Positions 29,459 to 33,643 of a stretch of DNA of 64,000 bases are shown piece by piece. How positions within the stretch are numbered: the stretch's first letter is position 1; each line of letters begins with the position of its first letter. A program made the position numbers and the translations under genes. The DNA is from Umbilicaria muhlenbergii (taxonomy: Eukaryota > Ascomycota > Lecanoromycetes > Umbilicariales > Umbilicariaceae). The notes beneath the pieces were generated by a model that was given only the letters and a program-made list of their open reading frames with translations, searched no databases and was not told the DNA's origin. The stretch covers positions 7,802,023 to 7,866,022 of the forward strand of contig KK106981.1 in NCBI GenBank assembly GCA_000611775.1, in the 5' to 3' direction.

Positions 29459-31129
29459 TTAATGCTTTGATCTTCTAAGCCTTGCCGGCGGCTCCATTTC
29501 CTCCTCCGTTCCATCCTTAATATCGTCCTCCTCGTTACCACTATCTTTGGAGTCCTCGTCATCGGAGGAGTCTGACACCCGCGGCACAGATGACCTGCCC
29601 GGCTGTACAACAGCAACACCTTGGTGCCTCGAAGTGGATACTTTCGCATTGGGTGTTTCTGCGCGCTGGTCTGCACGTTCCTCCGTACGACGTGCTATGT
29701 CGGAATCGCTTTGACCGCCCCAAGTCCGTCTAAGATACATGTCAAAGTCTCTGCAAGCTATCGCGACTTGCTCGAAGTGTTTTGCCTCTAGGTGAACTTT
29801 TGCATTCTTGACGCCATGCATCTCGTTGATTCTGAAGCTATCGTATTCGGCCAAGGCTAGTGCGGTTTGGAAAGCATTGCGAATCTGACGTCCGTTCCAG
29901 ACGGACTTCTCCTGTTCTAGTCCCTTGTAGTGAGTCTTTGCCCACTTCTTGATTTCCTTCGTGTCAATCATCAAATCGGGCTCAGCTTTGGCGATTCGAC
30001 TGATATGCCAGTCCCAAATCTCTTTTGTAATCCTATGTGAGAGCATAGGGTAGTAGAGACTCAGGTGAATGCGAGATTTGAATGCTGGATCAAAGGTGCC
30101 GACTCTGTTGGTAGTCAAAAACAAGATGCCAGAGTAGTACTCAAGTACTCGAAGGAACACGGAAACGATCGAGTTGCGCTGAAGGTCCGTCTTGTTACGA
30201 CGTTGCAGGAAAATATCAGCCTCATCTAGTAATAGGACACACCCCTAGTAGTCTGTTAGGTGCAGTATTGTTCACTAGATTCGCTATCTGACGTACCCAC
30301 TTGTGTGCCAGTTGGAAGTTATTCTCCAGGCGGGTTTCAACTCTTTCTGCTGTTTCGCCAATATCACCGCCTGCTGAACGAATTAGAACCATAGTCCGAG
30401 TTAAGGCATACCTTACAAGTGATAGGGAATAATGGGCGCTTCGTGTGCGCTGCAATACATTCTGGTATCCTATGTTCGTAAACATCCTCCTAAGACCGTA
30501 CTGTAATGCGTACCTGCCGTAGTGGTCTTCCCTACGCCCGGTTCGCCATGTAGAAGGATGATGAGGCCTTTGCCTGTGCGGAGCTAATCAGTGGTCTTCA
30601 TCTGCTTTGGAAAAAACCAACAGTCCACGTACCTTTGCCCGGTATAAGATCGGCTTGGTCGGCTTCTGCCCCTCCAAAGGTTGACCGGGTATCCCGAGAG
30701 TGGTTCTTGACTAAAGCCAGCAATGTATCCGTATATGTAGGCGGGCTAATTTAATAGAGACGTTGTGTAAGTCACCCTGAGTTCTGATGAACAAGAAGGA
30801 ATCGGACAGCAGTGTAGTGGAAGCCGTCTTAAATAGCCTGTATGCAGCACAACATTACGGCAGGTAGCCTTTCCAAAGACTTTGTGATCCAACATCGGAA
30901 TGTCATGAGATTTACAGCTTAAGTGCATCCAATCCAGCATCAAGAGACTTCATGTCTTGCACCTTAGTAACGTCTAAGCAAGCTGCAGAGTACACTTAAG
31001 CCGAAGAAGAACAAGGAGAATAGAACTGGTTGCTTCGGTACCCCATCTACGGCTGCGAAGGACAAAGCCGTAAACACGGGACGGAAGCAGCATCCGCTCC
31101 TCGTCAGTAAAATCTTCAATGGATTCTGT

Positions 31130-31573
31130 GTTGAATTTATTCAACGGATTGACTAGATTTCGATTGCTACGAAAAGTGGTGCGAATATATAGAGGGGGGA
31201 TGCCAAGCCACTAAGCAGGCGACAGTGAAAACTCAACAACAAAGGTGGCCATTCCACTTCGGAAGTCCTCCACAGAGAGGCATCCACAGAAGTCCTCCAC
31301 AGAGAGGCAGTCACGGAAGTCCTCCACGCAGAGGCATTACGGGCCTACAAGGCACTTATCGGAAGCCCACAAAGGTGGCCATTCCTTTGAGAATATAGGG
31401 ACTTGGGTGAGAAAATGAGGTTGTGGTTTTAGGGTCATGGGGGAGCAGTCGCAGTGAGGGGGAGTGTTGAGTTTTCACTGTCGCCTGCTTAGTGGCTTGG
31501 CATCCCCCCTCTATATATTCGCACCACTTTTCGTAGCAATCGAACTCTAGTCAATCCGTTGAATAAATTCAAC
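31130..31573. mobile_element. Non-autonomous DNA transposon (MITE) with 108-bp terminal inverted repeats
   Basis: 31130-31237 and 31466-31573 are reverse complements over 108 bp with a single mismatch. The flanks carry a 7- or 8-bp direct duplication, ATTCTGT(G), at 31123-31130 and 31574-31581. The element lies in a coding exon of the AAA ATPase gene. Removing it with one duplication copy restores the reading LQPTESIEDFTDEERMLLPS without frame change. The 228-bp centre has no transposase, but contains three 27-bp repeats and a 17-bp direct repeat at 31239-31255 and 31369-31385. Long repeats with a 7-8 bp duplication suggest a hAT or Mutator-like family (inference). Near-identity of the arms points to a recent insertion. 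Confidence 0.92.
31257..31337. repeat. Three 27-bp tandem repeats inside the transposon
   Basis: Units containing GAAGTCCTCCAC(A/G)(G/C)AGAGGCA begin at 31260, 31287 and 31314, exactly 27 bp apart. Subterminal repeats of this kind can be transposase-binding sites, which is inference here. Confidence 0.85.
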
Positions 31574-33643
31574 ATTCTGTGGGTTGAAGAGCTTCCCTCT
31601 GTTCTTCCATGAAATTTTGACTACGTTGGCTGTCGAGCTTGTAATCCTGGTGAATAAAATCGTTATCTGTGTGACTCAGGGGAGACGGTATCAATATCGT
31701 TTCTATCCACAATAGAGATGTGGTTAGAATACTGTCCACGTACCACAGCACTCTGGCTCTTTACATGGTTTTGCTGAATGTAGCATCCAGGTAGACTCTT
31801 CGTATGTCTCTCGGGAGTCAGATTCAAGGGGAGATCTGAGGCCCAGCGTGACCGTCCATTGCCATCGCGGCTCGCGCGCCGAGTTCTTTTGAAGGGCTAG
31901 AGCGAAGTCAATCATGATTTGAGAATCGATCTCTTCCCTTGGGTAGTCTAAACTTTGGCCTGTATACTGCATGTGGGTAACTGAGGATAAATCGCCGAAT
32001 CTCCTTCCTTGCTGGACGAAGTCGTTCGTCGCTCTAGCAGCATCGATGCCGAACTTTATCGGAAAGACCTCGAGGGTTGTGATAGGAATCTCTCCGTCGT
32101 AGGATCGGATTCTGAAAGTCCATTCTTTCGGCCCGTACCGTTTTCCGTCGAAATCATAAGAGAAACACTGGATGGTGAAAGGATTTTCCGTCTCGAGACC
32201 TTGGACTAGGTATTGTGTATGGTCTTCTCCGTCATCATCGTCCCCATCATCTCTTACAGCAGCGATACGCCGCCTGTCACTCAAATATTCTCGACCGTCA
32301 ATGAAATACAGGACACGGTAGGCTTGTGTACACTCTGGAGTACAAACTACATCACCAGGGCTGAACAGGTGCCATAAGTCCGCAAATGCGATCATTTTCG
32401 CCGTACCGTCTTTGGATCTGTTGTCGCAGGTCAAACAGTCCTTTGAGGTCAAAATCAAATACCTCTATTAGGAGCTGTAGATCACGTAATGCTCCCTCCG
32501 ACTCGGTTGACTCGTCCTCAACATCTTCGAGTAGTCGGTTGTCATTCCCATTGGTAGCCGCTTGGAGTACCCTTGGGCTAATGCTGTGGTCTGTCTTTCC
32601 ATCTGCATGACCTGATTTGTTCCCTATCCCTTCTGCAGCTGCGGCCTTGTATTTATCGGCCAGCTGTGTAGTGTAGTTCCTGATTTCTTGCTCAAACTGT
32701 ACGAACAATTTGAAAGGCCGAAGGAACACCAATGGCCACACGCAACGGTCTCGGAAAATACTGGTGAACTTTGCTTAGTGATACGTTCCAGCGTAAGCAA
32801 CAGAAAACTGGAGTTGATTCGAATACGTTGTGGGATCTGTGCTAGCACATCAGGTTTAGTTGGCGTGGTTGGGTAATCGGCATGTTCGGATGCTGAGAAG
32901 ATGGCATGCCGATGTTTCTTTGTCTTTCCACGATGGTTGTTGCTGACCTGTGCTTCGCTGACAAGGATGTCAATGACATGAGTATAGAGAACAGATTTTC
33001 TCGAAGATCTAAGCCGGTATCGTGCTCTTCTATAAACTATACTATATTTCAGAAAAACTGGCTCTTCTTCCTTGAAACCTTCTCGACCGACACGGTTGAC
33101 CTTCGCAATCAGTGAAGAAAATGAAAGCTTCACAGTTTCTTCATCATCAGAACGAGAAAGTTGAGTGTCCGTATTTAGGTGCTTTGATTTCAACAGTCGA
33201 ACCGATTTCTCCAAAGACGTTATCCGATCTTCAACAAGTGAAACATAAAGGCCATGTTGCATAAAGCGCTTTCCTTTCTTCTTTACCCGATCCTTGAGCT
33301 TGTCTTCATCGGAGGCTCCGAAGACAGTGTCAATAATTTCTGGCATGTATTCTGCGTATTCTGCTTCGGAACTATCGTTGCTTTCATAACCGCCCGCATC
33401 GAGTTTCTGCTTGTGACCGGTAGTGGCTGGAGCGACCTTAGCCTCGCCGATGGGCTCTGGCACAGGCTCGTGAGGTAACATACTTGATCCGGTCATGGCT
33501 GGGGTGTCCGGAGATTATGTCACTTCTCCCGTGATGCCCGGGCTATGGTATAAGGGCAAGTTGATGACAGGAGAGGACAGATTGCTCGCAGTGGACATGC
33601 CACTTCCCACATCCTCATGGGTGTCGTTTGAGGCTTTCGCCAT

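Follow-up and report, generated by a model that had tools for sequence, protein, structure and literature searches.

TRIMs have been described from plants and animals. In fungi they have already been annotated in Venturia (PMC4646964) and in genomes of the Boletales (PMC5689174). According to one source copia is primed by a half tRNA, and the title of a study cited there names the anticodon stem-loop of the initiator tRNA as the primer of Ty5 (PMC5371799). Among fungal copia elements, according to a survey, GalEa is devoid of a primer site and FunCo1 carries a tRNA-Lys site; the word 'initiator' does not occur in the main text of this survey (PMC5445492). Abnormal insertions of LTR elements have been described in Triticeae, where template-switching complexes with multiple LTRs lie in a single 5-bp duplication and are attributed to aberrant reverse transcription preceding integration; the main text of that study does not use the word 'inverted' (Sabot and Schulman, 2007; PMC1950507). 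DIRS-1 normally has inverted LTRs. This element encodes a tyrosine recombinase and its circular intermediates are integrated (PMC5633606). In the open-access literature searched the term 'inverted LTR' was used for DIRS-1 and for neighbouring LTRs in yeast, and an inverted-LTR insertion of the kind described below was not found there, which is weak evidence of absence.

Here we analysed a stretch of 64,000 nucleotides of Umbilicaria muhlenbergii (C1:7802023-7866022), hereafter the window, and searched the genome (34.8 Mb, seven contigs) for relatives of a 446-bp element at window positions 31129-31574. The family of this element shares with TRIMs short direct LTRs, a primer site, a polypurine tract, a 5-bp target duplication and solo LTRs, and it has no room for a polymerase. 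Unlike the TRIMs compared it carries arrays of 27-bp and 76-bp units which vary in copy number. The window copy departs further: its left LTR is inverted and its primer site is missing. As in Drosophila copia and yeast Ty5, the primer site of the family complements the anticodon stem-loop of the initiator tRNA, a complementarity which suggests priming at this site, yet unlike both the TRIM is without a reverse transcriptase. The Triticeae complexes, as far as described in the source above, contain three LTRs and two complete cores, whereas the window copy has one inverted LTR and a joint at its exact terminus. With the described state of DIRS-1 the window copy shares inverted LTRs; membership in DIRS was rejected because all ten normally paired copies of the family have direct LTRs and 5-bp duplications. 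Short and with inverted arms, the window copy also resembles a fungal MITE, but a class II origin is contradicted by the same ten copies. We consider the element to be a rearranged copy of a copia-kind TRIM which would be mobilised in trans, with a probability of roughly 0.85. This figure covers the class, the mobilisation in trans and the rearrangement; the route of inversion is left out of it. The TRIM family itself is new.

The arm of the window element is an LTR elsewhere in the genome

The first-pass annotation, made on the window alone, had called the element a MITE and proposed to search for its terminal sequence elsewhere in this genome. When the genome was searched with the window element, at least 137 matching stretches were obtained, and the end pattern gave at least 56 sites. 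This excluded the absence of other copies. From the search lists 42 loci were grouped and examined together with the window (43 loci; 62 arm hits, 50 of them complete). In the 42 other loci the arm acts as an LTR. Arm pairs were defined by a script as one arm followed by the primer site (at most three mismatches) and another preceded by the polypurine tract (at most four). All ten pairs found in this way were in direct orientation, and all ten were flanked by exact 5-bp duplications. Short direct terminal repeats with TG..CA ends (the 110-bp LTR) were thus present in every paired copy, whereas those of the window copy are inverted. Four further pairs of neighbouring arms had no matching flanks (the first pair of L024, two in L013 and one in L017); those of L017 are two separate arms, each with its own duplication.

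The primer site, GGTTATGAGCCCGG, follows 12 of the 50 complete arms at the above threshold, and the polypurine tract precedes 17, among them the right arm of the window copy. Neither neighbour was present at 21 complete arms, one being the left arm of the window copy. Fifteen of the other 20 lone arms possess exact 5-bp duplications, i.e. they are solo LTRs. The flanks of L025, L015, L042 and L026 match at four of five letters, those of L023 at one of five. When the flanks of all 21 lone arms were shuffled, the mean number of exact duplications was 0.77 and the maximum was 5 in 2000 shuffles.

Full TRIM copies (ten) are 533 to 992 bp long and, judged by this length, too short for a polymerase. 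The differences in length lie largely in tandem arrays of 27-bp and 76-bp units, which reach 13.9 copies in L027 and 7.3 copies in L048, respectively. The triple 27-bp repeat, which had been noted as distinctive for the centre of the element, is indeed there (its units are 100, 89 and 74% identical to the first unit). It is not a fixed property of the family: L011, L037 and L047 are without it.

The arm is therefore an LTR, as evident from direct pairs, solo LTRs, 5-bp duplications, primer site and polypurine tract, and the designation as MITE had to be abandoned. Consequently, a transposase-bearing relative with the same ends is not to be expected. Inverted arms are peculiar to the window copy, and its MITE-like appearance is an illusion created by a single copy. 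Only in the window copy do two inverted arms have outer flanks that match; the inverted pair of L013 sits in a nested and duplicated locus. A second copy of the window type was not found among the 43 loci. As a separate observation, L032 (3556-4202) contains a TRIM whose 5' LTR belongs to a third type. This LTR had no match among the sampled copia loci, and no matching duplication was seen by eye.

Structure and insertion site of the window copy

Table 1. Features of the window copy and of the gene around it (window positions).
Feature	Position	Strand	Remarks
Host gene, AAA core and fungal AAA lid	29462..30244	-	PF00004, E 3.8e-6; AAA_lid_13, PF23232, E 2.8e-19
Probable host-gene open frame spanning the site	30977..31760	-	111 codons after subtraction of 451 bp
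Left target-site duplication	31124..31128	.	TTCTG
Left arm, complete inverted LTR	31129..31238	-	110 bp; U5 end outward, U3 end (..CTCAACA) abuts the interior
TRIM interior, 3' part	31239..31464	+	226 bp, 97.8% to L041
Three 27-bp tandem units	31262..31342	+	array of variable copy number in the family
Polypurine tract	31454..31464	+	GTGAGGGGGAG, immediately 5' of the 3' LTR
Right arm, 3' LTR in normal orientation	31465..31574	+	110 bp; TGTTGAG...TTCAACA
TATATAT within the LTR	31512..31518	+	possible promoter element, judged from the motif
Right target-site duplication	31575..31579	.	TTCTG
Host gene, DUF7025 domain	31727..32464	-	PF22942, E 2.8e-23

The arms of the window copy are 99.1% identical. 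The single mismatch reported previously was confirmed; the arm length given with it, 108 bp, fell short by 2 bp. The difference is at position 30 of the left arm, and the T found there is private, i.e. absent from all 44 places matched by a scripted pattern in loci L011-L052. The insertion looks young because the right arm is identical over its 110 bp to seven other arms listed. Arm identity would date this insertion only if both arms had stemmed from one cycle of reverse transcription. Compared with the canonical copy L041 the window copy is devoid of the first 142 bp of the interior, including the primer-binding site.

The element is flanked by GGATTCTG and TTCTGTGGG, which defines a target duplication of 5 bp, TTCTG. 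It seems longer because the TG...CA ends of the element itself add matching letters. This explains why 7-8 bp, ATTCTGT(G), had been assigned to a duplication which as such is real. A length of 5 bp agrees with the duplications across the rest of the family.

The insertion site falls between the DUF7025 and the AAA domains, all on the minus strand. As these domains flank the site on one strand, insertion into the ATPase gene is well supported. This upholds the first-pass view of a single, apparently recent insertion event into a gene, accompanied by a target duplication. It had further been claimed that the insertion is inside a coding exon since the reading joins in frame once the element is subtracted. 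Subtraction of the element and of one duplication copy (446 + 5 = 451 bp, not a multiple of three) did leave an open frame across the site. However, a second frame across the rejoined site is also open (86 codons), and 464 of 1000 random cuts of 451 bp in the window left a minus-strand frame of at least 111 codons. In-frame rejoining is therefore no proof of an exon and was dropped as such after this control: the placement within the gene stands on the flanking domains, that within an exon does not. Further frame changes in the ATPase gene look like putative short introns. A genome search for another copy of the ATPase segment found none, and neither Rfam nor tRNA scans of the window gave a hit. 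The odds of the routes of inversion discussed below are unaffected by the weakened exon claim because these routes do not rest on an exon.

Primer site, initiator tRNA and possible copia partners

The primer site is complementary to CCGGGCTCATAACC, the anticodon arm of the initiator tRNA of the host. The sequence GGGCTCATAACCC was found once in the genome, inside an initiator-tRNA gene. CAACA followed by the primer site gave 68 genome matches at up to two mismatches, 38 of them exact; part of these were inspected. The copia reverse transcriptase, RVT_2, had 55 matches in the genome, two of which are without an in-frame stop in the matched stretch. Several RVT_2 matches have a primer-site match about 3.3 kb upstream. 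In two copia families the LTR ends with CAACA and is followed by the same primer site as in the TRIM: the 267-bp LTR of CopA (L053) and the CopB-like LTR in L068.

A chimera connects the TRIM with one of these families. L035 (1154-2024) consists of a CopB-like 5' LTR, the TRIM interior and the TRIM 3' LTR, all within one CCATA duplication. The 5' LTR is 82.7-87.8% identical to five CopB LTRs over 244-262 bp. L013 holds the same order, CopB LTR, primer site and TRIM interior. The structure of L035 implies that one cDNA bore the LTRs of two families and thus points to joint reverse transcription with copia. On the simplest reading, plus-strand strong-stop DNA of CopB would have moved onto minus-strand DNA of the TRIM by way of the primer site, which is identical in both. 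This transfer would need CopB and TRIM RNAs in one particle.

Against mobilisation by these families speak the sampled reverse-transcriptase regions of CopA and CopB (L057-L060, L063, L064, L066 and L067), which all contain in-frame stops, as do most of the RVT_2 matches. L056 (C3:352855-353574) has a copia-type open frame of 1505 codons with RVT_2 and SH3_retrovirus domains, which is possibly that of a live or conserved element. As a helper of the TRIM it was discarded: among the matches listed its protein is 26.2-42.2% identical to the other copia copies, and the primer-site match upstream adjoins a CopB-like LTR. A TRIM copy apparently within a copia element was seen in L050 (C5:949658-950245). 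Its flanks are 68-77% identical to copia DNA (L053), and a primer site is upstream and RVT_2 downstream.

The host initiator-tRNA gene is the most surprising observation of this work, above the element itself. Only one was found, at C4:1007223-1007401 on the minus strand (L069, 1647-1469, minus strand). Two GT..AG intervening sequences, GTAAGT..CAG and GTGAGT..CTAAC..CAG, interrupt its 5' half. By their motifs these look like putative spliceosomal introns. Removal of both results in a complete 72-nt cloverleaf of tRNA-Met(cat). A genome search with the spliced tRNA returned this locus only, matched by the last 50 bases. Searches for an initiator tRNA by a guessed pattern or with the yeast initiator tRNA sequence gave no match in the genome. 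In the literature searched we found no tRNA gene split in this way; a review calls non-canonical introns in eukaryotic genomes supposedly rare (PMC4090602).

How the left LTR may have been inverted

A normal member of the family would be a Ty1/copia kind of TRIM without a polymerase of its own, built as LTR (110 bp), primer site, interior, polypurine tract and LTR. Transcription would start from the LTR. Reverse transcription would be primed by the anticodon arm of the initiator tRNA, as the complementary site suggests, and copying would be carried out by proteins of resident copia elements, as is made probable by the primer site in common with copia and by the chimera of copia and TRIM. Integration would then generate the 5-bp duplication seen around the normal copies.

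The joint in the window copy deviates from this scheme in a precise manner. The inverted LTR stops exactly at its U3 terminus and ACAAAGG follows directly. The two sides of the junction do not overlap (C precedes ACAAAGG in canonical copies, and the base directly past the U3 terminus is also C). Both outer ends of the copy are U5 ends, and they lie within one exact TTCTG duplication. Exact LTR termini are the product of integrase. Because the U3 terminus at the junction is exact, integrase probably joined this U3 end to the interior of a TRIM. This may have happened among cDNAs prior to insertion, or within the chromosome by insertion of one element into another. The lack of a shared base at the junction fits joining by integrase, and the outer duplication is exact.

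Tentatively, at just short of even odds, we favour aberrant joining of cDNAs as the origin of the window copy. Two sister cDNAs would take part: integrase would insert one of them by its U3 end into the interior of the other, a TRIM cDNA, and the ATPase gene would receive the resulting molecule with two U5 ends as a single unit. The left LTRs, two in tandem, would finally recombine and leave one inverted LTR; LTR-LTR recombination is common here as judged from the many solo LTRs. More tentative still is the specific proposal that the window copy represents a single integration, in which copia integrase would have taken the two identical U5 ends of a self-integrated molecule, LTR(-)-interior-LTR(+).

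The joining may also have taken place in the chromosome. A normal TRIM would have been inserted at TTCTG, and a second, inverted TRIM at ACAAA within the first. A deletion between the two LTR-start sequences TGTTGA would then have removed the original LTR, the primer site and 142 bp, and the product would be an inverted LTR which seems to own its duplication. We regard this as a serious contender, somewhat below an even chance. A deletion by microhomology is possible since the starts of normal and inverted LTRs share six bases in five of six copies compared, and ten in L041. A precedent for nesting is L013 (1543-3622), where a chimera of CopB LTR and TRIM is inserted in a TRIM and parts of the locus are duplicated in inverted and direct orientation. 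Its inverted arms extend over 398 bp and are 98% complementary. L013 was considered as another instance of the window type and rejected as such because an exact CCTCT duplication at both junctions identifies a chimeric element nested in a TRIM; as a nested inverted element it favours the chromosomal route for the window inversion. Yet this route demands two insertions and a deletion whose breakpoint restores a perfect LTR end exactly at the duplication, and neither the second ACAAA copy nor the first LTR has left a trace.

An improbable alternative to joined cDNAs is a flip of the 5' LTR in place through its own ends TGTTGA/TCAACA, together with a separate deletion of the primer site and the adjacent interior. 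The LTR ends are indeed short inverted repeats, but 6 bp are short for an inversion, and the second, independent deletion must end exactly at the LTR terminus. A loose scan of the 43 loci for a flipped LTR joined to the primer site returned 15 matches, of which 14 were ordinary U5 ends and the fifteenth, in L049, was the flank of a solo LTR, four mismatches off. A true MITE, i.e. a DNA-transposon derivative with terminal inverted repeats, is very improbable: the 110-bp inverted arms and the flanking duplication which suggest it belong to the window copy alone. Against it, all ten of the other paired copies have direct arms together with the primer site and the polypurine tract, lone arms are flanked by 5-bp duplications, and there is a chimera with a copia LTR.

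Implications

Reading a single copy in isolation can make an LTR element look like a MITE. The present data add a fungal TRIM family and, with L035, direct sequence evidence that it was reverse-transcribed jointly with a copia family. If integration of a molecule with two U5 ends is true, the window copy would be a chromosomal record of a product otherwise studied as abortive self-integration. In that case, some of the annotated fungal 'MITEs' could be flipped LTR elements.
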